Shown: positions 2,271-21,869 of the stretch, one piece after another | Position numbering within the stretch: position 1 is the stretch's first letter | How the letters are laid out: every line of letters begins with the position of its first letter | From: a virus | Virus record (IMG/VR): IMGVR_UViG_3300005582_002640 | Location: 1 to 22,441 of that record | DNA: 22,441 bases | Reading direction: 5' to 3' (one strand) | The notes under the pieces: model-generated | Told to the model about the DNA's origin: nothing | Databases searched by the model: none | Seen by the model: only the letters and a program-made list of their open reading frames with translations | Made by a program: the position numbers and the translations under genes

Positions 2271-2272
2271 TT

Positions 2273-3688: not shown

Positions 3689-3696
3689 TTGATTTT

Positions 3697-3724
3697 ATTA
3701 TACAGAAAAATTCACTAAAGTCAA
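3697..3724 (-). promoter_or_regulatory. Sigma70-type promoter of gp41 (TTGACT-N16-TATAAT)
   Basis: On the minus strand TTGACT (3724-3719) is followed after 16 bases by a perfect TATAAT (3702-3697). The expected start site is about 3690, only one or two bases before the gp41 ATG at 3688, so the transcript would be leaderless or almost so. It lies just after the last gene of the glycan island and lets the helicase be expressed independently of it. Confidence 0.8.
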
Positions 3725-3743
3725 CACATTTTAACTAAATTCA

Positions 3744-4646
3744 TTACAAATTTTGTGAAATCCACTGATCAATACTTGTGTTTGCTTTCCAACCAAGATG
3801 TGTTTTAGCCTTGGTACAGTCGGAAAGAGTCACCCTAGCCTCTCCTTCCCGTGGAGGAATATGCACACTTTTTCCGCCAATCATTTTTGCAATATCGTTT
3901 ACGGAATGGTTTGTTTCCGTCCCGATGTTGTAAATCTGACCCCATATGTAGTCGTCTGATGGTATGAAAGTAGACGCTAGAATATTTGCTTCAACAACAT
4001 CGCTTACATGAACAAAATCCCGCCTCTGCTCTCCATCACCCACAATCGTCATTTCGTTTCCCGCAGATTTTTGTCGCAAGAAAACTCCAACAACAGGAGC
4101 ATACTGCCCACGAATAGGTTGTCTCTCTCCATACACATTGAAGTACCTGAAAATCAGAGTCTGTAGTCCATACAATCTACTATACATTTTGCACAGTTCT
4201 TCACCACCTACTTTGGTTACAGAGTATGGATTCAGACAATCAGTCGGCATCGTTTCTATGTTTGGATACGGATTAGCAAGTCCGTATGCTGATGATGTGG
4301 AAGAATAAATTACTCGCTTAACTCCACACACTCTGGCGCACTGCAATACGGTTGCCGTTCCTGTTAGGTTGGTTTCGACAGCCTTGACAGGATCACTTAT
4401 GCAATTCTGAATTCGTGATTCAGCAGCCATGTGAAACACGACATCTTGATGCTCGTAGAGTTTACGAGTCATGGTGTAATCCATTATGCAGTATTGATAG
4501 TTCTTTGCTAGAGGATTCCAATAGAACTGCTCGTTTGATTCCGCTGACTCATTGTCGATCACGGTTACATCGTGACCTTCAGAAATCAGCCGATCCACTA
4601 GATTTGAACCTATGAATCCTGCTCCACCAGTTACTAATGCTTTCAC
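3744..4646 (-). CDS. NAD-dependent sugar-nucleotide epimerase, GalE/WbpP-like SDR
   Basis: This 300-residue extended short-chain dehydrogenase has the NAD-binding GGAGFIGS at 7-14, SSTSSAYG near 115-122 supplying the catalytic Ser/Thr, and YSVTK at 141-145 with Y141 and K145. FRYFNVYGERQ and RRDFVHVSDV, the usual substrate-side signatures of UDP-hexose and UDP-HexNAc 4-epimerases, follow. The likely reaction is C4 epimerisation of a nucleotide sugar; the exact sugar cannot be read. The start is the GTG at 4646, with AGGA nine bases upstream. It is the last gene of the glycan island and is preceded by a 46-base spacer, the longest gap inside the island. Related SDR members act as 4,6-dehydratases or decarboxylases, so 4-epimerase is the best rather than the only reading. 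Confidence 0.88.
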   Translation of the reverse strand: MKALVTGGAGFIGSNLVDRLISEGHDVTVIDNESAESNEQFYWNPLAKNYQYCIMDYTMTRKLYEHQDVVFHMAAESRIQNCISDPVKAVETNLTGTATVLQCARVCGVKRVIYSSTSSAYGLANPYPNIETMPTDCLNPYSVTKVGGEELCKMYSRLYGLQTLIFRYFNVYGERQPIRGQYAPVVGVFLRQKSAGNEMTIVGDGEQRRDFVHVSDVVEANILASTFIPSDDYIWGQIYNIGTETNHSVNDIAKMIGGKSVHIPPREGEARVTLSDCTKAKTHLGWKANTSIDQWISQNL

Positions 4647-4692
4647 TCTTCGGTTTCCTCATAAAGTTTTTGTTGATATTTTTCAGTTATGG

Positions 4693-6009
4693 TCAGCGGT
4701 CTTTCATAAATTGAGCCAGAATTTTTTCAATGTAGTCAATTTGAGGGTCTGTAATTCTTGGACTGGTTCCCAAGAAGAAAGTGTTGATAGTAGCAGTAGT
4801 TGCGTTAGGGAAATCTTTAATCGGATCTCCTGTTGACAGATGTGCATAACCAGGCTGCAACAAAATGTTTCCCCCGAAGTAATTTCTGGTCTGAATCTTG
4901 TTGTCCTCAAAGAACATTGTCAATTCTGTTCTCTTGAAACCAGCATCTGCCTTGACTGTGATCGGAAAGGCAAACCAAGAAGGATCGGCCCCATCTGTTG
5001 CTTTCGGAAGAATGAACTTACTTTCGTAATTAGAGAAAATTTTAAGCAGCCTTCGGTAGTTATACTTTCGGGTTTCAATGATTTTGTCCAACTTTTCTAG
5101 TTGAACAAGACCCATTGCAGCCTGTAGGTCCAATGGCTTTAAATTGTATCCTATTTCTTCATACACATACTTGTGATCAAAGATTTCATCTGGCAGAGAA
5201 GGTAACCAATTACTAAATCTCTTCTTGCACATACCATTTTTCAAGCAAGAAGCCGCCTTTCCCGAACAATAGCAGCCACGACCCCACTCCCGCAGACTCT
5301 TGAGAACCATTTCTTGTTCTCTAGTCTTGGTGGCTATAAAACCGCCTTCCCCCATCGTTATGTGGTGGGCTGGATAGAACGAACAAGTAGACATTTCTCC
5401 AAACGAACCTAGTGCTTGTCCCTTGTATGTGCTTCCAAGAGCATCACAACAATCTTCTACTAGAATAAGGTTATACCGATGAACAATATCCATTACAGCA
5501 TCCATGTTTGGAGGATTTCCCAAAACATGGGCAAACACCAGTGCGCTTGCTCCATTTTTTGCTGCTGCTTCTAGTTGTTCAATGTTTAGATTCAGAGTAT
5601 CCAATTCAATGTCAATGAATACTGGCGTGAATCCGTTTTGAATAATAGGATTGATTGTTGTTGGAAATCCGGCAACAGGAGTAATTATCTTCGATCCCTT
5701 CGGCAGATCCCACAATTTCTTGGAACCAAGAGCAGTAATCATGAGAAGATTTGCACTAGAGCCACTATTGGTCAAACATCCATGTTCTTTTCCAAGACGC
5801 TTAGGAAACTTGTTCTCAAAACGAATCCCATTCTCTCCGAGAGCAAGCCAGCCGCCAAGCAAACAATCTATTACCGCAATATATTCTTTTTCGTCCAAAA
5901 CAGAGCCAGAGTACTGAACCCAATCAGTACCAGCAACCCAATTCTCGGATTTTGATTTTACGATCTCGGTGACGAGATCATTAATCATCTTCTGCTTGTC
6001 CTGCTGCAT
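4693..6009 (-). CDS. rfbH: RfbH/DdhC-type CDP-4-keto-6-deoxyglucose 3-dehydrase (E1)
   Basis: This 438-residue protein of the DegT/DnrJ fold has almost the same length as bacterial RfbH (about 437). In YPAHHITMGEGG the first His (residue 215) occupies the place of the PLP-binding lysine. This replacement marks the PMP-dependent 3-dehydrases, which remove the C3 hydroxyl on the way to 3,6-dideoxyhexoses. The iron-sulfur ligands are also present: Cys188, then 57 residues, Cys246-x-Cys248, and Cys261. The last spacing is 12 residues instead of the usual 7, so the cluster loop has a 5-residue insertion. The C-terminal part has EIGYNLKPLDLQAAMGL, typical of the family. The ATG at 6009 follows the upstream stop by five bases. 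The partner reductase (RfbI/E3) and a CDP-glucose 4,6-dehydratase are not in the window, so a host or distant gene must supply them. Confidence 0.92.
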   Translation of the reverse strand: MQQDKQKMINDLVTEIVKSKSENWVAGTDWVQYSGSVLDEKEYIAVIDCLLGGWLALGENGIRFENKFPKRLGKEHGCLTNSGSSANLLMITALGSKKLWDLPKGSKIITPVAGFPTTINPIIQNGFTPVFIDIELDTLNLNIEQLEAAAKNGASALVFAHVLGNPPNMDAVMDIVHRYNLILVEDCCDALGSTYKGQALGSFGEMSTCSFYPAHHITMGEGGFIATKTREQEMVLKSLREWGRGCYCSGKAASCLKNGMCKKRFSNWLPSLPDEIFDHKYVYEEIGYNLKPLDLQAAMGLVQLEKLDKIIETRKYNYRRLLKIFSNYESKFILPKATDGADPSWFAFPITVKADAGFKRTELTMFFEDNKIQTRNYFGGNILLQPGYAHLSTGDPIKDFPNATTATINTFFLGTSPRITDPQIDYIEKILAQFMKDR

Positions 6010-6014
6010 GATAT

Positions 6015-6914
6015 TCAATTCCACCACTTGTTTATTCCCTTCTTATATTCAGGTTCCCATCCAGTTGTTAATTTAATCTTGGTAGTGTCGAGTGAGTATC
6101 TTACATCCTGACCCCAACGATTAGGAACAAACTGTATACCTTCTTCTTTAGTTTTACCAAAGGAACTAAGAAGATCAATGGCAACATCAAGGTTTGTCAT
6201 GTGATTATCTGCACCAATATTAAATGTGGAATTTTTAACCTTCGATTTTATCAATGAATATATTGCTTTTACATTATCTGTTACATAAATCCAATCCCGA
6301 ACATACGAACCATCCCCATGTAAAGGAATTTTCTTCCCATTATTAATACAATCGAGGCTTTTTGGAATTAGTTTTTCATAATATTGTCTTGGTCCATAGT
6401 TGTTAGAACTCCGTGTAATAATATAGTCTATCCCATATGTTCTGTGGTAACTAAAGACAAGCATCTCAGCGGATGCTTTTGATGCGGAGTAAGGATTACT
6501 TGGCATTAGTCTATCGTTTTCTTTGAAAGACGAACCCGCAGTGTCTCCATAGACTTCATCTGTACTTATATGAAAAAACACAGGTCTTTCGTGTTCAGAC
6601 TTACCTCTGATTATCTCAAGTAGATTGTGTACTCCTAAGATATTACTCTTGATGAACGGAACAGTATCATTTATAGAGTTATCAACATGAGTCTCCGCAG
6701 CAAAATTAACAACATAATCGCACGACGGTAAATGCTTGACTTCACAAATATCTTGTTTGATGTGCTTATAATTCGGATTGTTATCAAATGGGAGGTTTTG
6801 ATTGGCACAATAAGTTACACAGTCATAATCAATGATTGTGTCTCCATTTTTGAGAGCCAACTCAACAAAGTGACTTCCAATAAATCCTCTACCACCAGTT
6901 ACTACTAGTCTCAT
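6015..6914 (-). CDS. rmlB: NDP-glucose 4,6-dehydratase, RmlB-like SDR
   Basis: This 299-residue SDR has GGRGFIGS at 7-14, AAETHVDNSI near 72-81 and STDEVYGD at 117-124 with the dehydratase signature T118-D119-E120. YSASK at 142-146 gives Y142 and K146, and RSSNNYGPRQYYEKLIPK is close to canonical RmlB. It should oxidise C4 of a dTDP- (or CDP-) glucose, eliminate water across C5-C6 and leave a 4-keto-6-deoxy sugar, the substrate type required by the RfbH-like enzyme downstream. It is about 40-50 residues shorter than usual RmlB, mainly in loops. The ATG at 6914 is preferred because AAAGG lies 6 bases upstream; a TTG at 6920 overlaps the previous stop. Nucleotide specificity cannot be decided by eye. 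Confidence 0.9.
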   Translation of the reverse strand: MRLVVTGGRGFIGSHFVELALKNGDTIIDYDCVTYCANQNLPFDNNPNYKHIKQDICEVKHLPSCDYVVNFAAETHVDNSINDTVPFIKSNILGVHNLLEIIRGKSEHERPVFFHISTDEVYGDTAGSSFKENDRLMPSNPYSASKASAEMLVFSYHRTYGIDYIITRSSNNYGPRQYYEKLIPKSLDCINNGKKIPLHGDGSYVRDWIYVTDNVKAIYSLIKSKVKNSTFNIGADNHMTNLDVAIDLLSSFGKTKEEGIQFVPNRWGQDVRYSLDTTKIKLTTGWEPEYKKGINKWWN

Positions 6915-6916
6915 GA

Positions 6917-7768
6917 TCAACCTTTCATCGAATCTAAAATTATATCAACCGCTTCGAAGGTATTTATCGACGGCTTATATCCATACGAAAGCAACTTATC
7001 ATTGTTTAAACAAACATTTCTGACTTGAACAACCTTGTGAAAGTGGGGAACATCGATGTTTGTAATATTAGATGTAGAACCCATTTTGCTATGTGCATAA
7101 TGAATAATCTCTCCGATTTTTCTAGGTTCCCTATTGCTAATATTGATCACTTCATCCATAGGCGATTGATCTATACATGTTTTGATTGCCCTACAGGCAT
7201 CACCAACATACATGAAATCACGAATATTGGTTCCCTTGTCATAAAGTTGAACTGAACTACCGACCTTCATAAGGTTCATCATATGCTGTAGGGCATTCTT
7301 TTTTAGTGATACGCCTTTATCCCCCTCGCCAATGATGTTAGTCATGCGGAGAATTCTGTATTTCATACCGTAGGTTTTGCAATAACAGATTAACATCTGT
7401 TCCGCTGCTCTCTTCGTGATTGAATAGAAACCTCTAGGATCGCAATAATCACTTTCTTTTGTATCCAAAGAGCAATTCATCCCGTATACAAACCAAGAAC
7501 TGACGAAATTAAATACCGTATCCTCACGGTAATTAAGTCTACAAGACTCAAGTACATCGACCATTTTGGTCAAGTTAGTTTGTATATCTAAAGTGGGCTT
7601 GTCGAAAATGTTATAATTGTGTGTCGTACTTATGAAATACAACACATCTTTACTTTTAGGTTTGTTCTCGTTTCGGTCAATAGATACACAACGATCTTTG
7701 TTCATCTCCACAAAACGGCTACCAATAAACCCTGTGGAACCATATACAGAAATTTCATTTTGAGTCAT
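6917..7768 (-). CDS. Extended SDR, sugar-nucleotide reductase or epimerase
   Basis: This 283-residue protein has a slightly diverged NAD(P)-binding GSTGFIGS at 10-17, a VSSWFVYG segment near 89-96 in place of the usual Ser-Ser-x-x-x-Tyr-Gly, and YSITK at 115-119 with the catalytic Tyr and Lys. NIRDFMYVGDACRAI follows as the substrate-domain signature. It belongs to the NAD-dependent epimerase/dehydratase family but lacks the T-D-E triad of dehydratases, so a 4-ketoreductase or epimerase is more likely. It lies immediately before the RmlB-like and RfbH-like genes, where a paratose, abequose or tyvelose type reductase or epimerase would fit. That assignment is contextual only. Confidence 0.8.
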   Translation of the reverse strand: MTQNEISVYGSTGFIGSRFVEMNKDRCVSIDRNENKPKSKDVLYFISTTHNYNIFDKPTLDIQTNLTKMVDVLESCRLNYREDTVFNFVSSWFVYGMNCSLDTKESDYCDPRGFYSITKRAAEQMLICYCKTYGMKYRILRMTNIIGEGDKGVSLKKNALQHMMNLMKVGSSVQLYDKGTNIRDFMYVGDACRAIKTCIDQSPMDEVINISNREPRKIGEIIHYAHSKMGSTSNITNIDVPHFHKVVQVRNVCLNNDKLLSYGYKPSINTFEAVDIILDSMKG

Positions 7769-7777
7769 ATTTGTGTC

Positions 7778-8575
7778 TTATAGTTTGTCAATGTTGTTTC
7801 TAAACCAACGCTCACCAGGATACATATCGGGAGTATCCATACCATTTCGTAATCTCTGTGGTGAATTGCCGTAAGCACCGCATGCATTATTCGAACCATC
7901 GGGATCTAGTTCCATCTTCTGCCCAAATTGAAACTCACGATTGTATGCGCTATACTTAGTTCCGCTATGTGTTTTGGTATTTTTTCCCGGTTGACAGTTA
8001 TTGTCGGTGTTGAAAACAAGACTGTTAGTAGTATAATTTCTCATGTGGCGATTGAATTTATTTTGGAACCTCCACATCCAGTCTCCATCTTCTTCACCAA
8101 AACCTATAAGCCTCTCGTCAAAATATCCAACACGATCTTTGTCTGTCATGTCTTTTCTGTACATGCAAAAGTGACCCCAATGACTGTTGATTCTAAACGA
8201 CTCGTCACCAAGACTCCTATTTTCAACAAGCATAGATTCAAAATCATCGAAAAACTGATCACGAAAAATAACATCATCACTAAGAATCAAGGTGTAATCA
8301 TTACTAGTATAATTAACAGATGTGTTCCACATGAAAGAACAACCACGCATGAAAGGGGACATCACCAAAAATGTATTTGAGAAGTTAGATGCATACTGCA
8401 TCATACCACGGCGATAGTTCTCGCTGAATGGTTCTTTATTTTGACCATTGACGAAAATGACTTTCTCCACATTCGGTCTCAATCTATTAATATTGGCGAG
8501 AAGAACCTTGAAATATGAATCAAATCTATAGACATAAGTCTGAACTGTGATGCTGTAAGATGGAATGTTAGTCAT
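7778..8575 (-). CDS. GT-A type glycosyltransferase, paralogue of 12199-13059
   Basis: This 265-residue soluble protein begins with SYSITVQTYVYRF, a beta strand typical of GT2-like folds. It has LILSDDVIF at 97-104, whose D100-D101 is a likely metal and nucleotide-sugar site, and GFGEEDGDWMWR near 155-166, which resembles the acceptor and base region of GT2 enzymes. It ends in PDMYPGERWFRNNID. All these blocks recur in the protein at 12199-13059, so the two are clear paralogues. It probably transfers a sugar from an activated donor to a growing glycan in the cytosol; donor and acceptor are unknown. It starts at the ATG at 8575, nine bases after the GDPD-like gene. Confidence 0.8.
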   Translation of the reverse strand: MTNIPSYSITVQTYVYRFDSYFKVLLANINRLRPNVEKVIFVNGQNKEPFSENYRRGMMQYASNFSNTFLVMSPFMRGCSFMWNTSVNYTSNDYTLILSDDVIFRDQFFDDFESMLVENRSLGDESFRINSHWGHFCMYRKDMTDKDRVGYFDERLIGFGEEDGDWMWRFQNKFNRHMRNYTTNSLVFNTDNNCQPGKNTKTHSGTKYSAYNREFQFGQKMELDPDGSNNACGAYGNSPQRLRNGMDTPDMYPGERWFRNNIDKL

Positions 8576-8584
8576 TGTTTATTC

Positions 8585-9049
8585 TCAATTAACGAATTTG
8601 TCTAGGCAGTCATAAATGAAATCAGAGCATACAGCATAAAACCCTGTATGTCCATAAGATTCTATGCACTTCTTAGATAAAAGTGGTATGATGCACTTAT
8701 CTGTTGGAGGATTAGTTAAATCGTGGGACCAAATATATCGATTGCTTGTTAATGTATAGTCATCGGATCTGTGACAAAAGTATTTGCAATCAGGAACATT
8801 ATCCATTAACCACAGAAGAGCATTATACTCCTTAACATGGATCCAGAGAAATTCTTTCCTCGCATTGATCCAATCTGATGAAATTGGATAATCTGGTGTA
8901 TCATGACCAAGATGTGGGATACCATCTCGCATTCTTAAGTCAATCTCGCAATCAAATGAATTATTTAAGCACTTGTCTATGTAATTTGGGGAGTTTTCAA
9001 GTTCAGGATAAACGCCATCCAGATTTCCTCTATGCGATATGAATATCAT
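8585..9049 (-). CDS. Minimal glycerophosphodiester phosphodiesterase-like protein
   Basis: This 154-residue protein starts at the ATG at 9049, overlapping the stop of the nucleotidyltransferase gene as ATGA; a longer upstream reading would run over that gene. It keeps the active-site residues of the GDPD TIM-barrel family: H6-R7, E18-N19, E35-I-D37 and H49. After residue 80 it is much shorter than the usual 230-250 residues, with WIHVKEYNALLWL perhaps replacing the E-x-K strand. Typical members hydrolyse glycerophosphodiesters to glycerol-3-phosphate and an alcohol, using a divalent metal. Here it may trim a phosphodiester-linked glycan part or release glycerol phosphate for it. No signal peptide is seen, so it acts in the cytosol. 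The fold family is well supported; the reaction is inferred. Confidence 0.8.
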   Translation of the reverse strand: MIFISHRGNLDGVYPELENSPNYIDKCLNNSFDCEIDLRMRDGIPHLGHDTPDYPISSDWINARKEFLWIHVKEYNALLWLMDNVPDCKYFCHRSDDYTLTSNRYIWSHDLTNPPTDKCIIPLLSKKCIESYGHTGFYAVCSDFIYDCLDKFVN

Positions 9050-9876
9050 TTGGACACCTCTTTGTGGTACTCTGTCCAATACTCAAAGCAAGCGGCAGCA
9101 TGTAAAGGGTGTTTTGCTTGCCCCCCCTTTAAGATTTTCACCCACGCCTCAAAGTTCTCGACTTCTTCGGGAGTCCCAAACACAGTCACATAAGGGGTAT
9201 CGTAGTACCCTACCTTTAGTCCATCTCTTACCAACAAGTTATAAACTAAAGTAACATAGTACTCACCGTTATAGTTAATATCTTCTTTCATTGCCTGATC
9301 GAAATACTTCTTAATGTATTTCCCTTTGCGGAAGTAGTAGACACCAGTTGATGCATGTTCATCTAGTGGATTATTAGTATAGCAGGCTTTCTCCTTGATC
9401 TCCTCAAGGATGTTGTTTTCTCCCTTCACAAAAGCCATCTTCGTGTGAGCCAGCGTGTGTGGGTGAAAGCCCGTGTGTGTAAGTACACAACCATCGAACT
9501 TTCCTTCCTTCATCTTCTTCTTGAAGTCCTTGCGATCCCAAAGGTGAGGATTATCGCAATACGAGATGATCACCTCTTCATTGTCATCGATTAGATCGTA
9601 GACAGTTTTTACGGTGAAGACCGGACCCAATTTATGCTGTGGCATGGATACAATCTTGGCACTTGGAACAAGTTTCTTTAGTATTTTCCTCATGTTAGTT
9701 GTTTTCAAATGCACATCATTGCAGATGAAAACAAACTCATCATTCTTAACATCAAACATGTCCAAGATGTATTCAATTATCATTTTGCCATTGACTTTGA
9801 TCAATGGTTTTGGATCGATATAACCCTTCTCTACGAAACGGTTTCCCGTCCCTGCCATCGGAACAATGATTTTCAT
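9046..9876 (-). CDS. Sugar-1-phosphate nucleotidyltransferase
   Basis: This 276-residue protein has the N-terminal signature of the NTP-transferase family: VPMAGTGNRF at 5-14, then DPKPLIKVNGK at 21-31. ISYCDNPHLWD near 104-114 contributes D108 as the metal ligand. It should condense a sugar (or polyol) phosphate with an NTP to give the NDP derivative. Both the nucleotide and the sugar are undetermined; glucose-1-phosphate is possible but the sequence is not a close RmlA or RfbF copy. It overlaps the kinase-aldolase gene upstream and the GDPD-like gene downstream by ATGA, so the three products are probably made in a fixed ratio and may work on one compound. A run of seven G lies 24-25 codons before the stop. 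Confidence 0.88.
   Translation of the reverse strand: MKIIVPMAGTGNRFVEKGYIDPKPLIKVNGKMIIEYILDMFDVKNDEFVFICNDVHLKTTNMRKILKKLVPSAKIVSMPQHKLGPVFTVKTVYDLIDDNEEVIISYCDNPHLWDRKDFKKKMKEGKFDGCVLTHTGFHPHTLAHTKMAFVKGENNILEEIKEKACYTNNPLDEHASTGVYYFRKGKYIKKYFDQAMKEDINYNGEYYVTLVYNLLVRDGLKVGYYDTPYVTVFGTPEEVENFEAWVKILKGGQAKHPLHAAACFEYWTEYHKEVSK
9121..9127 (-). repeat. G7 homopolymer tract in nucleotidyltransferase gene
   Basis: Seven consecutive G bases (coding strand) occur at the Lys-Gly-Gly-Gln codons of the nucleotidyltransferase. They are the longest G/C run I noticed in an otherwise AT-rich region. A slip here would alter only the last 25 or so residues and break the ATGA coupling to the next gene. 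Confidence 0.6.
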
Positions 9877-11282
9877 ACTAAAGTCTTCCTATGCTTTTCA
9901 GATGTCATGTTATTAAGGTGCCTGATCTGATTTCTATTCAAGAACTTAGGAGTCAAGCAAGCAGCCGTCATCAACCTTAGTATGTAGTTGTTCGTAGATG
10001 ACATCTCTACGGGAAACACAGCGGCATCAGGAAATAACGGAAGATTTATTTTAGTATCATCCTCACTAACATCAACAAATGATTCATAGTGATTTCCTAA
10101 CCACATCTTACATCTGTTGTTGATTTCATTAGTAATAGAAAGTGCTTCCTTAGCGTTTACTGCGCTTACTATTAGTCCGTGGTTCTCAAGAAACAGAATA
10201 CCTTTACTATCACCAATTCGATTCATAAGTTCTCTACCAGGAACTTGATACTCAATGAATTTATATGATAGGTCTTTAAATAATCCATTGATAATTGGTT
10301 TCCCTTCTCTGCTACAGAGAAGTACATTCAGATGAATCGGATGTGTGTGAATTATTACTCTTTCCTTGATAGAGTCATGAAACCCCATTTCCATAGAAGG
10401 TCTTCCAAATCCAGACTTCTTTGATAGAGTTACATAGTTATTGTACTCATCATCCGTATCAAACGATGGAACAGATCCATTACTATGATGGCAGACACAG
10501 AATCCGTGGTAGAGGTTGATGTCTCCCATCATCGAACCTGATGCTTTAATAATCAATCCACTCTTAGACTTTATTGAAACATTGCCGCCCCTTCCTTGCA
10601 CTAGCGACGGGTCTAAAGATAAAGACTTACAGATACCCATAAATTCGTTAAGTGAGTCGTAGAAATCTTTCACTTTACTCATCAATTCCGAACCCACATC
10701 AGTTATATTCACATATTCTAAACAAACAGACCCCATCCTGTCTTTAGTGAATTTAACGATGATGTCCGCATTTTTTCTCTGTGGAGTTATATACAATTCT
10801 TCGTCATGTATCCTTCTTTTCATCGTGTCTATGACTTGATCCTCAGTGTATCCCCTCTTTTTGGTATCTCTTTTGATTTTCCACTCAGTCTTCAATTCAG
10901 TATCCGTGTCTACAAATATTTTGACATCAGCGAGATCTGATGTGGGCTTATGGTATAAAGCATGTAAGCCCTCATATAAAACACATTGTTTAGGTTCAAT
11001 TTTTACAGGAGGATCAAACTTACCGGTATCGTGATTGTACTGCACACGAAGCACACTTTCACCATTCATAAGAGAAACTATGTGTTCGTGTCCGACATGG
11101 AGCACATTAGATTCAGGATTTAAGTGGGTTTTGGTGTTCCAGGCGCAATTATCTCTCTCCCATTTATGAAGATCATCGCCACTCAAACAAACTACTTTGT
11201 CAACTCCAATAACACTCTCTATGAGTTTCGACAATGTTGTTTTACCCACACCAGAACTGCCTGACACACAAATTAGTTTCAT
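9873..11282 (-). CDS. Fusion of uridine kinase/PRK-like P-loop kinase and class II aldolase
   Basis: This 469-residue protein has two recognisable domains. Residues 1-190 form a P-loop kinase with Walker A GSSGVGKT at 8-15, LYEGLHALY at 102-110 and VDTDTELKTEWKIKRDTKKRG near 124-144, the pattern of phosphoribulokinase and uridine kinase. Residues about 205-420 form a class II aldolase/adducin domain: GNVSIK at 233-238, KASGSMMG at 247-253, E298 in SMEMGFH, HTHP at 312-315 and ENHGL at 366-370. H312, H314 and H368 are the expected zinc ligands and E298 the catalytic acid. Such aldolases act on sugar-1-phosphates or related phosphates with dihydroxyacetone phosphate or glycolaldehyde phosphate chemistry. 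The fusion could phosphorylate a sugar and then cleave or build it. It is coupled downstream to a sugar nucleotidyltransferase. Domains are clear; the substrate is unknown. Confidence 0.88.
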   Translation of the reverse strand: MKLICVSGSSGVGKTTLSKLIESVIGVDKVVCLSGDDLHKWERDNCAWNTKTHLNPESNVLHVGHEHIVSLMNGESVLRVQYNHDTGKFDPPVKIEPKQCVLYEGLHALYHKPTSDLADVKIFVDTDTELKTEWKIKRDTKKRGYTEDQVIDTMKRRIHDEELYITPQRKNADIIVKFTKDRMGSVCLEYVNITDVGSELMSKVKDFYDSLNEFMGICKSLSLDPSLVQGRGGNVSIKSKSGLIIKASGSMMGDINLYHGFCVCHHSNGSVPSFDTDDEYNNYVTLSKKSGFGRPSMEMGFHDSIKERVIIHTHPIHLNVLLCSREGKPIINGLFKDLSYKFIEYQVPGRELMNRIGDSKGILFLENHGLIVSAVNAKEALSITNEINNRCKMWLGNHYESFVDVSEDDTKINLPLFPDAAVFPVEMSSTNNYILRLMTAACLTPKFLNRNQIRHLNNMTSEKHRKTLV

Positions 11283-12178: not shown

Positions 12179-12198
12179 GTGTATTATTCTCCATTTAA

Positions 12199-13059: not shown

Positions 13060-13083
13060 GATATTTTCTCTTTTAACTTGCAA

Positions 13084-13842
13084 TTAGAATCTAGGCATTT
13101 CATCCACTTGAAAAATATTGATCTTTAGACCTTTTAATAGAATCCATGTTCCATAGTATCTCTCCATTAAACCGCCCGACAGTCTATGTTTCCTCTCCGG
13201 ATCGTACTGGTCTATATTGTCTCTCTCTGCGGCCCATACGCAAAAATTCATCATGTCCATGAAGTTATCCTTTGACATAACGAACGATGAACATAAAGGT
13301 ATGATTTTATTCTTAGCAAAATCAGAAAAACGAATAGATGTTCCATAGTACTTATTGAAATTTGCTATCATAGGAAAATAACACAACGGATCTCCTCGCA
13401 ATTTCTGAGGTTCGTTTGGGTCCATTGCTATCTTAGTTGATGTTATTTCGTGATTCAAATCAATAGGGGCAAAGCAAATTACACCAAGATTTCCCATAGC
13501 ATCAACATGCTTAATTAAGTAATCAAGCATAGATTTTCCATCTTTAGATTTTATCGTATGATCATATTGCATGAAACCAACATAATCAGTTTCATTAAGA
13601 TACGAAGGGTCTTTTTTTAGTGTGTGATACAAAGAAATCAGAAACTCACTTTCAGTCCAATGTTTCCCCTTTGAAACAAATCCAGGCATATCTTTACACA
13701 ATAATACCTTAGATGATATATTCTCCGATACAATAGAGAACGGAGAATCTCCCACCTTAACAAAAGAGTATAGATCTTCAACACCTTGGTATTGATGCTC
13801 ATGGAGTTGAGAATGGAAAACAACAAATACTCTAGTGTTCAT
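13084..13842 (-). CDS. DUF4422-like capsular-polysaccharide glycosyltransferase
   Basis: This 252-residue protein has HWTESEFLISLYHTLKK near 61-77, then ETDYVGFMQYDHTI at 84-97, and SGGLMERYYGTWIL toward the end. This order resembles DUF4422 glycosyltransferases of capsule and O-antigen clusters, where an acidic YIGFCHYRR-type block sits in the middle and a lone glutamate near YMAERLF follows. Here GFMQYDH replaces the GFCHYRR motif, so it is a diverged member. No transmembrane helix is seen. The ATG at 13842 overlaps the stop of the GT2 gene upstream (ATGA). The reaction is presumably sugar transfer, with donor and acceptor unknown. Confidence 0.65.
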   Translation of the reverse strand: MNTRVFVVFHSQLHEHQYQGVEDLYSFVKVGDSPFSIVSENISSKVLLCKDMPGFVSKGKHWTESEFLISLYHTLKKDPSYLNETDYVGFMQYDHTIKSKDGKSMLDYLIKHVDAMGNLGVICFAPIDLNHEITSTKIAMDPNEPQKLRGDPLCYFPMIANFNKYYGTSIRFSDFAKNKIIPLCSSFVMSKDNFMDMMNFCVWAAERDNIDQYDPERKHRLSGGLMERYYGTWILLKGLKINIFQVDEMPRF

Positions 13843-14504
13843 TTAAGTACCACTGGAGGATTAGCGTTACCAGGAAGTAATGGTGCTGATGTTGATTTTG
13901 ATGACCACTTATATACATGTAAGATCTTGTCTATTTTGTGGTGTGAGGTAATGTTCTTTGTGGCCTCTGTGGCAAACAAAGTGTCTTCTCCGGAGAATGA
14001 ATCCCCGAATGGATACTTCTTGGCATAATCGGTTCTCCAAGCACACCAATGCCAAGGAGGTCTTTTACATGGGATGTAATTTCCATGAGAATCCATAGGA
14101 TACTTCGGTAGTTGGTCGAATGGATTCATAGGAGCATTAATGTCTGTGCTTATAAGAAAAGACACACCATCAATTATAGCCTCTTGATTATAATGGATAA
14201 CATCTACACCATCGTGTGAATTGATAGCCGAGCATACTTCGCTGACAAAATCATTTGTTACATCATCATCATCATCGATGATTGCACAGTACTTTCCTTG
14301 TGCGATATGGTGAAGAAGATGTCTTTTCTTACCAATTGACATGCTCTTATTATCCATTATTGAAACAACTTCAACATCTTTTCTATCACCAATTTGAGTC
14401 ATGAGTCTTGAAAACATAGGCTCAAGGTTCATACGCATCCTTGATGGAATAGATGGAATTGCAATCGTAAGTAGGATTTCTTTTTTACTCAATTTATTTC
14501 TCAC
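13839..14504 (-). CDS. GT2-family glycosyltransferase, paralogue of 18488-19084
   Basis: This protein of about 221 residues has a GT2 Rossmann-like start (LLTIAIPSIP), KSMSIGKKRHLLH at 53-65, and an acidic run of five Asp at 77-81 (IIDDDDDVTNDF) as the nucleotide-sugar and metal site. FSGEDTLFA follows as the likely catalytic-side block. The start is the GTG at 14504, overlapping the stop of the fucose-synthase gene as GTGA. Starting further upstream would overlap that gene by 76 bases, and a TTG at 14492 is an alternative. The KSMSIGxKR and DDDD blocks are shared with the transferase at 18488-19084, so the two are paralogues. The Asp run is encoded by tandem GAT codons on the coding strand. 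Confidence 0.82.
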   Translation of the reverse strand: MRNKLSKKEILLTIAIPSIPSRMRMNLEPMFSRLMTQIGDRKDVEVVSIMDNKSMSIGKKRHLLHHIAQGKYCAIIDDDDDVTNDFVSEVCSAINSHDGVDVIHYNQEAIIDGVSFLISTDINAPMNPFDQLPKYPMDSHGNYIPCKRPPWHWCAWRTDYAKKYPFGDSFSGEDTLFATEATKNITSHHKIDKILHVYKWSSKSTSAPLLPGNANPPVVLK

Positions 14505-15430
14505 TTTCGAATATTTGGGTAATTTTCCATAAAGTATTTGACGGATTCTTTCAGACCAGTTTTTAAGTCTGTCCAATTAAATTTTGGAAAGTTCTGCATA
14601 AACAAATCGTTCGTTGTGGGTTTGCGTAAAATACCATCCGGTTTGTCAATGTCAAATACAATTTTTCCATTATAATTCATAGTCTGAACAATCTCGTCAA
14701 CTAATTCTCTAATAGAATATGACCTACCTGGAGATATAATCATTGTTTGTGGGTATTGCTTAGACGGGTCTTTTCGTTGATCGTCGTGAATAGTTTGTAT
14801 AACTCTAGCAAGATCTCCAACATAGATGAACTCTCTTTCAGGTAATCCTGTTCCCCATATCTTAAGATCGTCCCCATTTTTCATAGCCAAATAACACTTG
14901 TGGATTAGACTAGGAATAACATGACCCCCAACTAAATCGTGATTGTCATTCGGTCCATAAAAATTACAAGGAGCAACACATGTAGATGATATTCCATATT
15001 CATCTTTTAGGCATCTAGCACCAACTTCGATCATTCTTTTTGCATATGCATATCCGTAGTTGGTGAAGTGTGGCTCTCCACGATGAAGGATATTTTCACT
15101 TAATGGGAATGGTCCATCAGCAGGAAGAATACATGTTGAAAGTACAAAGATAGAGTTGTTAATGCTGTACTCTTTGCATGCTCGTAGTATGTTCAGATTC
15201 ATCACTAAGTTCTTGTCAAAGAACTCGTAGACCCATTTTGTATTAGCATGTACACCACCAACAATTGCTGCACAATGAATTATTCTGTCTATTTCTTCTC
15301 TCTCGATAAAATTACAAAGAGAGTCGTAGTCGAGTAAGTTTACCTCTTTACTACTAGGCTTTATTGAATTCGATATGTTTAAGTTTGATCCGAGAAGGCC
15401 AGACCCACCAGTGATTAAGGTTTTCCCCAT
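14501..15430 (-). CDS. fcl: GDP-L-fucose synthase-like SDR (GDP-4-keto-6-deoxymannose 3,5-epimerase/4-reductase)
   Basis: This 309-residue SDR carries the whole pattern of Fcl/WcaG: GGSGLLGS at 8-15, AAIVGGVHAN near 54-63, STCILPADGPFPLSE near 98-111 and YAYAK at 127-131 with catalytic Tyr and Lys. CNFYGPNDN and WGTGLPEREFIYVGDLA follow. The family epimerises C3 and C5 of GDP-4-keto-6-deoxymannose and reduces C4 with NADPH, giving GDP-L-fucose. No GDP-mannose 4,6-dehydratase (Gmd) is in the window, so its substrate must come from the host or from elsewhere in the phage. Its ATG shares one base with the stop of the small DUF4254-like gene. The Ser-Ser-Cys of canonical enzymes is Ser-Thr-Cys here. 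A related heptose or colitose reductase cannot be excluded. Confidence 0.88.
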   Translation of the reverse strand: MGKTLITGGSGLLGSNLNISNSIKPSSKEVNLLDYDSLCNFIEREEIDRIIHCAAIVGGVHANTKWVYEFFDKNLVMNLNILRACKEYSINNSIFVLSTCILPADGPFPLSENILHRGEPHFTNYGYAYAKRMIEVGARCLKDEYGISSTCVAPCNFYGPNDNHDLVGGHVIPSLIHKCYLAMKNGDDLKIWGTGLPEREFIYVGDLARVIQTIHDDQRKDPSKQYPQTMIISPGRSYSIRELVDEIVQTMNYNGKIVFDIDKPDGILRKPTTNDLFMQNFPKFNWTDLKTGLKESVKYFMENYPNIRK

Positions 15431-15687
15431 TATTTTCTCCCATACATTTTAGTTGATCCCTGCGAATACAACTTTTGAATTTCACCAGTCTTAATCATGT
15501 GATTTACTCTTTCATCTATTTCTTGAATAAGATCATTTCTTTGAGAATTAGCAATATTAGTAATTTTGCAAGCATTGGCGATGTCATTGTCTGTGGAATC
15601 GCTGTTTCTTTTTATGTCTTCAGCCATCCAAATCCGAATGTTTACCACAGTTAATTTGTCAATTAGATTTCCAATCGTATCTGCCAT
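15430..15687 (-). CDS. Small DUF4254-like protein of polysaccharide clusters
   Basis: This 85-residue hydrophilic, helical protein starts at the ATG at 15687, one base after the methyltransferase stop. TIGNLIDKLTVVNIRIWMAED at 4-24 and a later NSQRNDLIQEIDERV fit the pattern of DUF4254 proteins. Those occur beside glycosyltransferases in LPS and capsule clusters and have a LIDKLTI-VN-K-WH core and an N-QR-LI-EID motif. Family members are usually longer and have no proven reaction. The stop codon shares one base with the ATG of the fucose-synthase-like gene. The match is by recalled pattern, so the family name is moderately sure and the role is unknown. Confidence 0.65.
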   Translation of the reverse strand: MADTIGNLIDKLTVVNIRIWMAEDIKRNSDSTDNDIANACKITNIANSQRNDLIQEIDERVNHMIKTGEIQKLYSQGSTKMYGRK

Positions 15688-15688
15688 A

Positions 15689-16909
15689 TTACGCTCCCAT
15701 GATTTTGAATTCAGGACACGGTACAATAAACTTACCGCCACCTTTTATGTAATCACTTTCACGAACCATAAACTCATTAATGAAGTGCCAAGGAAGAACC
15801 AGCAGATAATCCGGTTTTTGCTTTCTCATCTCATCTTCAGAGTATATGGGTATGTTAGTCCCTACGGTTTTAAGACCAAATTTGTAGATGCTTCTTTCTG
15901 CTATACCATCGATCATTGTGTGATCAAGTCCAAAGTATTGCAGTAAAGTATTACCCTTAGTTGATGCTCCATATCCCCATATTCGTTTACCTTTGGCCTT
16001 CTCTTGCTTGATAAAATCGGTGGTTTTCTGTTTAAGGTCTACAATACGGGAAAAAAATTCATCCCATGTTTTTTTACTGTTTAGTTCCAAAGTCTTTTCA
16101 TACTCCAGTAAAGAGTGAACTCTGAAACTACAGACATCACGATATGGCTGAGTCCCAAACTTAGTCTTGTCTGATGTTTTCTTCATGGCGTAGACACGAA
16201 AAGATCCTCCATTCGTATCGTTGAGTTGAACATCTACAATATCAAACCCACACCTATCGAACATACTCTTCAAATTAAAAAGTGAGTAATAGTAGATGTG
16301 TTCATGGCAGATGTTGTCGAAGGCCAATTGCTTCAACATCAATGGGGTATAAGACAACTGTAGAACCCAAAGACCGTCATCATCTAGAACATCATTCACA
16401 TCACGAATAAATTCCTCCGGATTCTCTAAGTCGTAGAACATAGCGATTGTAGTGATTACCTTCGCTTTCATGAACCCAAACTTGGAAGATTTAAACTTTT
16501 TCGCCGTGAAGTAGTCTTGTATGATCAAGTTTGAATGCTTTTCGGACTCATTCTTGAAAGAATCATCCACAGGATCAATACCAACACGAATCATTTGGTT
16601 GGGAACATAACTCAATAAAGTACCATCGTTGCAAGCAATATCGATCCAAAGATCATTCTCTTTGAAATTAACTACATCTAGAATAGATTCAACGATGTGT
16701 TGAAGTTCTGTACGCATAGTTTGATTTATACCTGAGCGATACCAGTATTTCCCATACATAGTATCAAGTGGAGCAGTAGTATCTAAACGAACCAGTCCAC
16801 TGTTTTCATCTAACATCATTTTCATTTCGACCTTACCTCCACGGGGCATATTCCCATCTTGGATAAAGTCAGACACATACAAATCGCCCAAAGTAAATAG
16901 TTCTTTCAT
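15689..16909 (-). CDS. SAM-dependent sugar C-methyltransferase (NovU/TylC3-like), zinc domain lost
   Basis: This 406-residue protein has the three-part layout of deoxysugar C-methyltransferases: YWYRSGINQTMR near 55-66, SAM motif I DIACNDG at 90-96, and the HEHIYYYS active-site block. The C-terminal domain has GYGASTKGN and LPWHFINEFM, then GGGKFIVPCPE. These enzymes methylate C3 of 4-keto-6-deoxy or 3,6-dideoxy NDP sugars, which fits an island with RmlB- and RfbH-type enzymes. Unusually, the N-terminal zinc domain, normally with C-x2-C and further cysteines, is absent: the protein starts at FTLGDLYVSDF and the first cysteine is Cys93. The ATG at 16909 has GGGAA about 8 bases upstream. Confidence 0.9.
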   Translation of the reverse strand: MKELFTLGDLYVSDFIQDGNMPRGGKVEMKMMLDENSGLVRLDTTAPLDTMYGKYWYRSGINQTMRTELQHIVESILDVVNFKENDLWIDIACNDGTLLSYVPNQMIRVGIDPVDDSFKNESEKHSNLIIQDYFTAKKFKSSKFGFMKAKVITTIAMFYDLENPEEFIRDVNDVLDDDGLWVLQLSYTPLMLKQLAFDNICHEHIYYYSLFNLKSMFDRCGFDIVDVQLNDTNGGSFRVYAMKKTSDKTKFGTQPYRDVCSFRVHSLLEYEKTLELNSKKTWDEFFSRIVDLKQKTTDFIKQEKAKGKRIWGYGASTKGNTLLQYFGLDHTMIDGIAERSIYKFGLKTVGTNIPIYSEDEMRKQKPDYLLVLPWHFINEFMVRESDYIKGGGKFIVPCPEFKIMGA

Positions 16910-16923
16910 GATAAATTCCCAAT

Positions 16924-17625
16924 TTAGATATGATACGCTATCAGGTTGTCGAGCGTATTTATGCTGAAGTCAAACATCTTACTCATTTCATACACAATAG
17001 TCTCACCACAAAATATACCATCTTTTTTGTTTCTCATATTATGAAGATAGTCAATCATACTGAATCCATTACAATAAACATTCATGATGGAATTCGAAGC
17101 AAATGCAAACCTATCATCGACCATCTCAGGTGGAAGTGGACCTTTATTTGGAACAAGATTTCTGTTAGATATGTTGAGTGTGTCTTTGTGATAAGATGAA
17201 CAGATTACTGGCTTGTTGTAAGCGATATCGAATCTTGCTCTAATCACATAATCATACTCTATATCATTTTCAAGGCGATATTGTTCTTTTAATAGATTGG
17301 CCTGCAATATGCTGTACCAAGAACTATACACCATTGTGACAAAATTGTTTCTCTCATATCCCCTTCCGTGAGAAGCCATCATTCTACTAAGTTCCATATG
17401 GCTGTCAACAAACTTTTTCTGAGTCTCAAACAACCATCGTTTTGGCTTAAAATTTTCCAATATGAATCTAGACTTTTGTTTCTCTTCACTTTCATTTAGC
17501 CAAGAGTGAATGAATACATCAGCGTTGTTGGGTTCAATCAAACATTGATTTATGTTATTGAAACCAGCATAAATGTTTCTTGGGAGACCCGAAATTAGTA
17601 GACAAGTTTTCATTTGATTTTTCAT
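16924..17625 (-). CDS. Putative glycosyltransferase with YVIRARFD motif
   Basis: This protein of about 233 residues starts MKNQMKTCLLISGLPRN, similar to a group of capsule and phage transferases beginning with an ISGxPR strand. It has YDYVIRARFDIAY near 124-136, whose R-x-R-x-D is a common acidic site in that group, and a WYSILQANLLK helix before it. There is no membrane segment. Two ATG codons in the same frame, at 17625 and 17613, lie in a perfect 12-base duplication; neither has a clear Shine-Dalgarno sequence, so the true N-terminus may be four residues shorter. The gene follows a GT-B-like gene with a 7-base gap. Function is inferred from motif and context only. Confidence 0.62.
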   Translation of the reverse strand: MKNQMKTCLLISGLPRNIYAGFNNINQCLIEPNNADVFIHSWLNESEEKQKSRFILENFKPKRWLFETQKKFVDSHMELSRMMASHGRGYERNNFVTMVYSSWYSILQANLLKEQYRLENDIEYDYVIRARFDIAYNKPVICSSYHKDTLNISNRNLVPNKGPLPPEMVDDRFAFASNSIMNVYCNGFSMIDYLHNMRNKKDGIFCGETIVYEMSKMFDFSINTLDNLIAYHI

Positions 17626-17634
17626 TTGATTTTT
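17611..17634 (-). repeat. Perfect 12-base tandem duplication carrying the start codon
   Basis: On the minus strand AAAAATCAAATG occurs twice in tandem, so two in-frame ATG codons four codons apart are available to the gene at 16924-17625. The last 11 bases of the unit are also found at the gp41 start (3696-3686). Replication slippage explains the duplication most simply. Confidence 0.85.
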
Positions 17635-18484
17635 ACAAAACTTGTAAGACTTGTTCACAAATTTCATTCATGTTATTATAATTGTTACTCCAAATTGTTC
17701 TATCTGTCGGCCAACTGTCTTGCACCGAATTGCAGAAACAAACAAAAACCTTGCTACTGATTGTATCTTTTGTGATACTAAAAGTGTATGGACCTGATGA
17801 TCTTCCTATGATCACATCACAATTTTTTGCTATGTAAGAAACCTCATTCATATCAAATAAAATTGTTGGATCATTTATTATGTCCGAAGCATAGACTACA
17901 TTTTCTGAACTAATTTTATCTTCATCAGATAACTTGTTCGAAACAACGAAGATATAGTCGGAAAATTTATTAGACAGGTGTTGGATTAATTGTGTCATGG
18001 ATCCATATGCTTGTCCTGAATTTACATGGTTATTGCATATCAATACATGCTTTCGCTTTTTATTTGAGAAATAATTATCAATTCCTTCGATTTTGAATTG
18101 ATTGTAATCTATTTGGGGGCAGTAAAAATCAATCGGTTTCATTTGTTTTAGTACCCCTATCGATTGATATACTTTGGTCATCACGGAATAGTAGTTAGTA
18201 AAATTACATCCATAAAATGGTGCTATCATTTCACCATTACTATTCCATGAAAACTGTCCAATCCATGTTGATATTTTTAAATCACATTTTGGAAGTTCTT
18301 CTTCGGAAGAAATAGTTTTCAGTCCCTTTATATCAGCCAATAGCCTAGAATTATTCTTATGTAAATAGTAGTAATCATTGTCTCCAAGAATACTCATTAA
18401 ATCAACGACATACGGTCGGGACATGTGTATGTCACCGTTATGAAGTTCATTGTAAAACAGAATAGTTTTCCGTCGATTATTCAC
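17633..18484 (-). CDS. Putative GT-B fold glycosyltransferase, GT9-like
   Basis: This 283-residue protein opens with KTILFYNELHNGDIHMSRPYV, reminiscent of heptosyltransferase-like (GT9) enzymes in which a strand is followed by an H-N-G-D loop. VLICNNHVNSGQAYGSMTQLI near 145-165 looks like the start of a second Rossmann domain. CDVIIGRSSGPYTF near 223-236 resembles the donor-binding turn of GT-B enzymes. No transmembrane helix is seen. It starts at the GTG at 18484, three bases after the stop of the GT2 gene. The assignment rests on fold-like patterns without a diagnostic catalytic motif, so it is the least certain transferase of the island together with its downstream neighbour. Confidence 0.55.
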   Translation of the reverse strand: MNNRRKTILFYNELHNGDIHMSRPYVVDLMSILGDNDYYYLHKNNSRLLADIKGLKTISSEEELPKCDLKISTWIGQFSWNSNGEMIAPFYGCNFTNYYSVMTKVYQSIGVLKQMKPIDFYCPQIDYNQFKIEGIDNYFSNKKRKHVLICNNHVNSGQAYGSMTQLIQHLSNKFSDYIFVVSNKLSDEDKISSENVVYASDIINDPTILFDMNEVSYIAKNCDVIIGRSSGPYTFSITKDTISSKVFVCFCNSVQDSWPTDRTIWSNNYNNMNEICEQVLQVL

Positions 18485-18487
18485 GAA

Positions 18488-19084
18488 TTATCTTTGTACT
18501 TGATTGTGGTGTGTTTCTTCAAAGGTCTTTCTACAGATGTAGTTGTAGATTATTCCTTCGATCCATTCCTCAGTCTTTAACTGCGGACGAATCCCCATAC
18601 TGAATACACGATCTTCACCACTATTAATTTGTGGAAATCCAACTGCTGCTGCTATCGATCTCTTTACTGCGTTTAAGTGGTTGGGTGGTCTATAGTATAT
18701 CTTTGATTCGTGATCATCAATCCACCTATCGTACCTTAGCGAATGAACAAAGGGTCTTGAATAGCCATCAGAAAATACTACTTGTCCAGTCAGAGATGAG
18801 CAATCAGGATTCTTAACAATAGCATTTAAGACTTTGTCTATGTAGTCAATACTAACTGTATCGTCATCGTCTACAAAAGCAACATATTCACCTGTAGATT
18901 GAGTCAGAAGCATATTTCGCTTCTGTCCAATAGACATCGATCTATCATCAGATGCATATAAAACTTGAACAGACTTTTTACCAATCTGCCTATCAAGGTC
19001 ATCCATGAGTTGAATTAGTTTGTTCTTTCGCTCATTCAGGCTTGGAATAAGAATCGACAATTTATGAGTTGGTCGCCAAGGCAT
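18488..19084 (-). CDS. GT2-family glycosyltransferase, paralogue of 13839-14504
   Basis: This 198-residue protein has a typical GT2 start (KLSILIPSLNER), DRSMSIGQKRNMLL at 47-60, and FVDDDDTVSIDY at 70-81 with four Asp forming the nucleotide-sugar and metal site. NSGEDRVFSMGI follows near the expected catalytic base. It is shorter than most GT2 domains (about 230-250) and ends soon after the base region. The ATG at 19084 overlaps the upstream transferase gene by 23 bases but is supported by GAGGGAG about 6 bases before it. The SMSIGxKR and Asp-run blocks also occur in the product of 13839-14504, marking a duplication within the island. Confidence 0.82.
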   Translation of the reverse strand: MPWRPTHKLSILIPSLNERKNKLIQLMDDLDRQIGKKSVQVLYASDDRSMSIGQKRNMLLTQSTGEYVAFVDDDDTVSIDYIDKVLNAIVKNPDCSSLTGQVVFSDGYSRPFVHSLRYDRWIDDHESKIYYRPPNHLNAVKRSIAAAVGFPQINSGEDRVFSMGIRPQLKTEEWIEGIIYNYICRKTFEETHHNQVQR

Positions 19085-19835
19085 TTTTCGCTCCCTCTTC
19101 TAATGAGATACCAAAGTTATTCTCTTTGTGTTTTTCATAAACATTACGATCATGGTCATACATTTCCTGTGATTCATTTCTTTCATGCAAAGAGTCACGG
19201 GAAACCTCTTGAGTTGGAATCTCTCCACGGGAAGCCATAGCATAGGGGATTCCAACCCATTGATGTTGAATTATGCAACGATCAATATAAACAACTTTAT
19301 TCAGCATACGAGCAACTTGCGTGAATTCATCATCAGCAAAAACACTCTTGTACTCAGGATTGTATAAGTAATTAAATCTATTGAAATATTTTGTTCCGAG
19401 TATGCTGAGTGTGATCAATCGATCTTTGCCACTAAATCCATCGTCATAGTGAAGAACTCCATCTGTATCAGGAAAGTTTTCGGCCATATTTTTGCAGATG
19501 ATATCATCATAACCAGAAACTACTGGAATCATATCATCAGATGCGAGAACAATAACATTAGGTTTGATTTTTTGTACCATGTTCAAATCTGCGTTACATG
19601 CTTCAATTTTAGTTTTAGATGCTCCATATGAGAAATGCAATCTATTTTCCATCCTGCTTCTCATTCGCATTAGATGAGAGATCATGTTGTCATTGTTCAT
19701 AAGTGGATCATCATGATCCATAGAAATAAGGAAATGCACATCTCTCATTCCTGAACAAAAGTTAATATATCGATCTAAAACTGAAACAAATTTATTCGGT
19801 CTCCCTCTTGTGGGCATTTTTATCAATAATCTCAT
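19062..19835 (-). CDS. GT-A/GT2-like glycosyltransferase coupled to uvsX
   Basis: This 257-residue protein starts RLLIKMPTRGRPNKF, the first strand and loop of a GT2 fold common in phage genomes. It has SMDHDDP near 38-44, VLASDDMIPV at 97-105 (D100-D101 as the D-x-D equivalent), HYDDGFSGKD and FADDEFTQVARML as the catalytic-side block. It is soluble by sequence. Its ATG overlaps the uvsX stop as ATGA, so translation of the island's first gene is coupled to a core recombination gene. Donor and acceptor are unknown. This gene marks the upstream boundary of the glycan island. Confidence 0.8.
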   Translation of the reverse strand: MRLLIKMPTRGRPNKFVSVLDRYINFCSGMRDVHFLISMDHDDPLMNNDNMISHLMRMRSRMENRLHFSYGASKTKIEACNADLNMVQKIKPNVIVLASDDMIPVVSGYDDIICKNMAENFPDTDGVLHYDDGFSGKDRLITLSILGTKYFNRFNYLYNPEYKSVFADDEFTQVARMLNKVVYIDRCIIQHQWVGIPYAMASRGEIPTQEVSRDSLHERNESQEMYDHDRNVYEKHKENNFGISLEEGAKNALATNS

Positions 19836-20869: not shown

Positions 20870-20893
20870 ATTATCTCCATTACAAAGTGATTT

Positions 20894-20908
20894 GGGGATT
20901 ATATCCCC
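20894..20908. promoter_or_regulatory. Perfect inverted repeat enclosing the uvsX -10 box (possible operator)
   Basis: GGGGAT and ATCCCC form a 6-base perfect inverted repeat around a 3-base centre, with TATAAT lying inside it. A dyad placed exactly over the -10 element could be an operator for a repressor or activator. It could equally affect the promoter by DNA structure. The symmetry is seen; a binding protein is not known. Confidence 0.5.
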
Positions 20909-21677: not shown

Positions 21678-21869
21678 CTATTTAGCGAACTTATCTTGCC
21701 TCTTCTTTTTGGCAACTGATCGCTTTCTGGTGTTTTTAGTATTCTTGTTTGGTTTTTCAACATACAACCATTCTAAGAAACTAGACCAAAGAATACCAAG
21801 TCCACCTAAAATGACCAGAATAGTAATAAGATTCATGAGCGACTGTGCATGATTGATTTCGTTTGTCAT
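21678..21869 (-). CDS. Small single-pass membrane protein, function unknown
   Basis: This 63-residue protein has one strongly hydrophobic helix at about residues 11-34 (LMNLITILVILGGLGILW) followed by a very basic tail rich in Lys and Arg, including the run KKKRQDK. The positive-inside rule places the tail in the cytoplasm. Its ATG overlaps the gp43 stop codon as ATGA, so it is translationally coupled to the DNA polymerase. No lysis signature (dual-start holin motif, lipobox or coiled-coil spanin) is present. I do not recognise the family. A membrane tether with a nucleic-acid-binding tail next to the polymerase is conceivable but purely inferred. Confidence 0.75.
   Translation of the reverse strand: MTNEINHAQSLMNLITILVILGGLGILWSSFLEWLYVEKPNKNTKNTRKRSVAKKKRQDKFAK

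Follow-up and report, generated by a model that had tools for sequence, protein, structure and literature searches.

Why does a T4-type phage carry a long run of sugar genes in the midst of its replication genes, and what could be made with them? The question is raised by a virus record from IMG/VR (IMGVR_UViG_3300005582_002640), whose 22,441 bases were analysed as a whole and are called the window below. Every gene of the window is on the − strand, and gp43, uvsX and gp41 follow each other in this order, as in a T4-type replication block, with 19 consecutive co-directional open reading frames (ORFs; i01 to i19) between uvsX and gp41. A previous sequence-only reading had placed this island at 3744-19835 and had pointed to the close linkage of uvsX, 40 and 41 in T4, where gene 40 alone lies between the other two; the coordinates were confirmed exactly, and so was the T4 gene order. 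The coding coverage of the interval is 1.01, many island genes overlap their neighbours by a few bases and the start of i19 overlaps the stop of uvsX (19832-19835). The G+C content is about 0.40-0.44 around uvsX and gp41 and 0.32-0.38 over most of the island, with i01-i02 (up to 0.43) as an exception inside it. As judged from the comparisons described here, the island behaves like a bacterial serotype locus with fixed flanks, a swappable middle and genes under purifying selection.

The uvsX-gp41 interval is closed or short in the named T4-like phages. The two genes overlap in P-SSM2 and are spaced by 0.5-0.9 kb in S-SSM7 and the methylophage Melnitz, and with a joined uvsX-gp41 query the two were located together within a short stretch in 2153 of 2614 phage records, with no large insert in the sampled rows. 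The nearest relatives in IMG/VR all carry a sugar cassette in this position. On a uvsX tree of 104 rows, two related clades together have 22 placed members, each with a cassette, and the interval does not exceed 2 kb in 77 outgroup rows, Melnitz and cyanophages included. Where the cassette is complete, it occupies 6-17 kb (6.1, 6.2, 9.0, 9.7, 10.0, 10.0, 10.4-10.6, 11.4-11.6 and 12.2 kb; 15.2 kb in the 52.6-kb contig L008 and 16.1 kb in the window; from coordinates, 10.4 kb in the 177-kb contig G021 and 17.1 kb in the 119-kb contig G023). The cassette state requires 2 changes on the tree, compared with 20 in shuffles. The two cassette clades were supported at 99-100 in the first uvsX tree; a single cassette clade is also compatible with the uvsX data (approximately unbiased test, p-AU 0.245), and two gains are therefore not claimed. 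The locus is thus a standing property of both clades and not a single recent insertion. The idea of an inserted pathway thus holds in so far as the outgroups have 0-2 kb and the relatives other sugar sets at this place, but the locus itself is long-standing in the clade and it is the content that is exchanged.

Alternative cassettes at the same boundaries, which the sequence-only reading had suggested looking for, were found in each of the 22 placed clade members. Gene sharing, counted as reciprocal best hits at ≥40%, is low among the 13 complete cassettes (Jaccard index 0.13 on average and 0.56 at most), and i18-i19, i10-i12, i06-i09, i03-i05 and i01 recur singly as modules. Two types of core were distinguished. 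One is i06-i09, which includes the nucleotidyltransferase and a kinase-aldolase fusion and is found in about 20 contigs, mostly adjoining gp41; its gene i07 is the most conserved of the cassette (67-88% in some 20 other contigs). The other, a HAD-phosphatase with a nucleotidyltransferase, occurs in L015, L017, L029 and L071. Around these cores GT7, GT10, GT15 and GT90 enzymes, UDP-galactopyranose mutase and C-methyltransferases vary. Ordinary core content, with one gene set common to all close relatives, was rejected as an explanation, since the gene sets differ.

Exchange of content by recombination is seen at the cassette end near gp41 when closely related sequences are aligned. The gp41-proximal gene i01 is present in the window and in L199 and absent in L008 and L011, L008 lacking 3752-4700. 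Between the window and L008 the synonymous divergence (dS) is 0.34 in i02 and 0.085 in i03, compared with 0-0.04 in nearly all other genes, which marks an imported tract in i02. In L200, i01 is 94.8% identical to that of the window at the DNA level and the adjoining genes 74.6%, and the break, at 3751, is at the same place as in L008. The dN/dS ratios of 0.04-0.12 in i02 and i03 indicate that both genes are under purifying selection.

The window is a single metagenomic contig with genes of bacterial type, and a bacterial polysaccharide locus falsely joined to phage genes had to be considered. Near-identical contigs cross both island junctions, however, and misassembly was rejected. L008 and L011 match the window at 99.7% over 1-3752 and at about 99% from 4702 onward, L012 at 99.6% over 19410-22441, and L199 at 100% over 2330-6793, spanning the gp41-i01-i02-i03 junctions; the four come from differently numbered metagenomes, whose samples may or may not be independent. 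Many diverged relatives have the same arrangement as well, so that we give a false join practically no credence.

The island consists of nucleotide-sugar and transferase genes in one run, as cyanophage lipopolysaccharide (LPS) clusters do, and has gene families in common with them. The RmlB-like, RfbH, Fcl-like, C-methyltransferase and nucleotidyltransferase families named by the sequence-only reading were all recovered, and profile and PDB matches support the presence of such enzymes together with several glycosyltransferases (Table 1). By its sequence, i02 can be taken with certainty as a true RfbH (CDP-6-deoxyglucose 3-dehydrase): it scores 479.6 bits with the NCBIfam equivalog NF011936 (cut-off 423), and its alignment to 3bcx, the closest solved structure, retains the AHHITMGEGG histidine motif and the Fe-S cysteines. 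The i03 protein falls short of the RmlB equivalog (320 bits with a TIGR01181 cut-off of 365); it looks like a dTDP-glucose-4,6-dehydratase (PDB match 2hun) of the short-chain dehydrogenase/reductase (SDR) type, and is not classed as RmlB. The i15 protein resembles the mycarose 3-C-methyltransferase 4rv9 and lacks the N-terminal zinc-binding domain that its homologue in L018 retains. Named phages offer no full-length relative of the i08 fusion, which occurs again and again next to gp41 in IMG/VR (about 20 contigs); no bacterial relatives were found in GTDB genomes by a weak search with two patterns only. The fusion may mark a new pathway.

The earlier count of about nine transferases is best taken as a maximum. 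As glycosyltransferases, i10, i12, i18 and i19 are well supported, the last three of them matching phage glycosyltransferase families, and i05 is weakly supported by a galactosyltransferase match. A profile of i19 gave no significant match to PDB sequences; its AlphaFold2 (AF2) model (predicted local distance difference test, pLDDT, 85.5) matched GT-A enzymes in Foldseek with E 3e-7 (chondroitin polymerase, SpsA and TarP). The i09, i11, i16 and i17 proteins, with no informative family match, are guesses as transferases; the i09 model was poor (pLDDT 49.5) and was not taken to a fold search.

Table 1 Features of the window, with positions counted from its first base
Feature	Position	Strand	Basis or remark
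NadM-like cytidylyltransferase, partial (flank)	3..404	−	phrog_3041 E 8e-34; order kept in relatives
phrog_455 protein (flank)	406..1620	−	phrog_455 match
gp41 replicative helicase, left boundary	2273..3688	−	phrog_19 E 3e-123
i01, NAD-dependent nucleotide-sugar epimerase	3744..4646	−	PF01370 E 3e-58; phrog_540
i02, RfbH-type 3-dehydrase (pyridoxamine phosphate/Fe-S)	4693..6027	−	NF011936; PDB 3bcx E 1.5e-111
i03, RmlB-like NDP-glucose 4,6-dehydratase	6015..6920	−	TIGR01181 320 bits; PDB 2hun E 8e-73
i04, SDR nucleotide-sugar epimerase/reductase-like	6917..7768	−	PF01370 E 8e-29
i05, probable glycosyltransferase, i10 paralogue	7778..8575	−	phrog_29879 E 5e-6; clusters with i10
i06, no function assigned, in conserved i06-i09 core	8585..9079	−	phrog_34507 E 2e-32
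i07, sugar nucleotidyltransferase	9046..9876	−	PF12804; phrog_3980 E 2e-62
i08, PRK/uridine-kinase domain fused to class II aldolase domain	9873..11282	−	PF00485 E 2e-39; PF00596 E 5e-16
i09, presumptive glycosyltransferase	11282..12202	−	no family match; conserved in core module
i10, GT2 glycosyltransferase	12199..13083	−	PF00535 E 1e-6
i11, presumptive transferase	13084..13842	−	no family match; occurs in other cassettes
i12, glycosyltransferase, same PHROGs as i18	13839..14576	−	phrog_8858 E 2e-20
i13, GDP-fucose-synthase-like epimerase/reductase	14501..15430	−	PDB 4e5y E 7e-64
i14, DUF4254-like small protein	15430..15741	−	PF14063 E 7e-7
i15, sugar 3-C-methyltransferase without zinc N-domain	15689..16909	−	PF08484 E 4e-46; PDB 4rv9 E 7e-41
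i16, presumptive transferase	16924..17667	−	phrog_13607, family without assigned function
i17, presumptive transferase	17633..18484	−	no family match
i18, GT2 glycosyltransferase related to mycobacteriophage transferases	18488..19084	−	PF00535 E 4e-9; phrog_14775 E 6e-35
i19, GT-A-fold glycosyltransferase	19062..19835	−	phrog_14945; AF2 and Foldseek
uvsX recombinase, right boundary	19832..20869	−	phrog_97 E 1e-88
Polysaccharide deacetylase, without signal or transmembrane segment	20927..21763	−	PF01522 E 2e-13
gp43 DNA polymerase C-terminus (flank)	21866..22441	−	phrog_262 E 9e-64

From right to left, the window reads gp43 C-terminus, polysaccharide deacetylase, uvsX, i19 to i01, gp41, small genes, phrog_455 and NadM-like cytidylyltransferase. 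The deacetylase, which lies outside the island as first delimited, is 44-52% conserved in the nearest relatives, and the sugar theme therefore reaches past uvsX. Two small frames (g3a and g3b, 1772-2285) overlap each other and are both kept beside gp41 in relatives. No tRNA was found in the window, and psbA, sought as a host marker, is absent. Several arrangements were observed in other contigs. In L234 and L235, from a distant phage, the i06-i09 core stands between gp41 and uvsX in reversed gene order, with flanking genes 31-32% identical. L158 (10817-14739) shows a second address for sugar genes, with homologues of i03, i02 and i04 placed in the gp41-phrog_455 interval. Inserts of 0.4-1.3 kb, perhaps introns or homing elements, split gp41 or uvsX in L014/L217, L042 and L183.

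What is built at this address? The enzyme families point to a dedicated heteroglycan as the product. Each cassette would supply its own activated unusual sugars and soluble glycosyltransferases. In the window, i03 would provide an NDP-4-keto-6-deoxy sugar, i02 and i15 would bring about deoxygenation or C-methylation at C3 of the same or a second sugar, i13, i01 and i04 would serve in epimerisation or reduction, i08 with i07 would form another building block and activate it, and i05, i10, i12, i18, i19 and others would carry out the transfer. No polytopic protein of the flippase, polymerase or initiating-transferase type was found by hydropathy among 173 cassette ORFs, which suggests that the glycan is either built on a soluble cytosolic acceptor or lent to host export.

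On balance, we favour the first of these, namely a glycan-type locus of the phage, in which a swappable cassette between uvsX and gp41 specifies a phage-specific oligosaccharide on virion proteins. We infer co-expression with uvsX in early or middle infection, and the oligosaccharide would be assembled in the host cytosol by the soluble transferases. One or more virion proteins are our tentative choice of acceptor. They are preferred because, among named phages, i18 is closest to mycobacteriophage transferases (35-39% identity), one of which is encoded directly behind the major capsid gene; capsid glycans have been reported in such mycobacteriophages (Freeman 2023, cited in PMC11256854). Particles of different strains would then differ in glycan type and might escape recognition by hosts or competitors. 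Somewhat more speculatively, the fixed address and its cassettes, exchanged by recombination in the flanking uvsX and gp41 and encoding a strain-specific oligosaccharide coat of the virion, could be the phage counterpart of O-antigen typing. Several points weigh against this interpretation. The kinship between i18 and enzymes that glycosylate capsids is a family-level one, at the identity given above, and about half of the transferases have weak matches or none. The locus adjoins early replication genes and not late structural genes, a position that would fit an early function on DNA or the host envelope as well or better. On the timing of expression, a scan for the T4 late-promoter motif gave no guidance in either direction, so few copies of the motif being present in the relatives.

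A credible competitor, to which we give a lower weight, is remodelling of the host envelope, in which the soluble transferases would work with the lipid carrier, flippase and ligase of the host to alter its O-antigen or capsule and block superinfecting phages. This is the usual proposal for glycosyltransferases of the related pelagimyophages (PMC7029224), and it agrees with the O-antigen-like gene content and variability, with the true rfb-type gene i02 and with the uvsX/i19 overlap, which suggests cotranscription and early expression. A flippase, polymerase, ligase or initiating transferase was not seen in any cassette, however, so that the host machinery would need to handle glycans of many kinds, and a superinfection trait might be patchier than a locus kept by every placed clade member. 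The same constancy, the 19 intact overlapping frames at a coverage of 1.01 and the purifying selection on i02 and i03 (dN/dS 0.04-0.12) disfavour functionless passenger or "stuffer" DNA, which has been considered for cyanophage LPS clusters (PMC3037559) and would agree with the strong content turnover; we regard it as very improbable.

The position of the island also calls to mind DNA hypermodification, that is, oligosaccharides built on modified bases for restriction evasion. In T4 the gp43-uvsX-gp41 block holds gp42 and beta-gt, in Melnitz it holds genes for a C5-methyltransferase and a Tet_JBP-like protein, and there is precedent for DNA glycosylation by multiple transferases (Pyle 2024, cited in PMC12619734). 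Neither a thymidylate synthase/hydroxymethylase (PF00303) nor a C5-methyltransferase (PF00145) was found in three long contigs with a cassette (156, 177 and 119 kb), which are perhaps incomplete, and the window itself is a fragment; the absence argues to some extent against T4-style DNA glycosylation. The 156-kb contig, which contains gp23, gave no Tet_JBP match, and the 19 cassette proteins of the window gave no match to the Pfam families of the T4 AGT and BGT. Other base chemistries are possible, and DNA as the target seems unlikely to us. In Melnitz (L002, MZ577097.1 4070-6089) the C5-methyltransferase gene and, after it, the Tet_JBP-family gene occupy the gp43-uvsX interval, and the pair might possibly confer an oxidised-methylcytosine modification of DNA; of the two, the available part of the Melnitz paper names the methylase only.

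Large glycan gene clusters have been described before in T4-like phages. The contrast that the sequence-only reading drew with one or two sugar genes as the usual number does not hold in general, because large sets are present in P-SSM2, S-SM2, S-SSM7 and pelagimyophages (PMC3037559, PMC7029224). The cyanophage LPS-type clusters are likewise long runs of nucleotide-sugar and glycosyltransferase genes, and in S-SM2 genes for a class II aldolase and a kinase adjoin a homologue of i07 (44.7%). They lie, however, near hli03 or phoH and tRNAs (PMC3037559), uvsX-gp41 is closed in P-SSM2 and S-SSM7, and serotype-like turnover at one fixed address was not found described for them in the partial literature covered. 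The host recognition cluster of pelagimyophages, which are related T4-like phages, is hypervariable and contains glycosyltransferases, but it is located together with tail fibres between VrlC and gp14 (PMC7029224), whereas the present island adjoins replication genes and no tail-fibre gene was recognised in it. Bacterial O-antigen and capsule loci share the fixed flanks, the exchangeable centre and the enzyme classes, true RfbH included; the island differs in being phage-borne and in that no Wzx, Wzy, ligase or initiating transferase was seen. The closest functional picture is offered by the clade-specific glycosylation clusters of Megavirinae, with rare-sugar pathways and transferases in 6-33 genes (PMC10117803), although these belong to giant viruses of eukaryotes, whose fibril sugars have been measured. 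The mycobacteriophages are unrelated phages with few transferases and no large sugar pathway in the stretches read. The uvsX-gp41 address and the turnover at it appear to be new, no description of such a locus having been found in a literature search of partial coverage.

Sugar pathways encoded by phages tend to be regarded as dispersed auxiliary genes. A glycan locus that keeps one address, is never empty and reassorts its content in uncultured T4-like clades implies continual selection for glycan diversity. Its defined set of alleles can be used to ask which targets phages glycosylate, and enzymology gains from it new transferases and an unusual fusion of kinase and aldolase.

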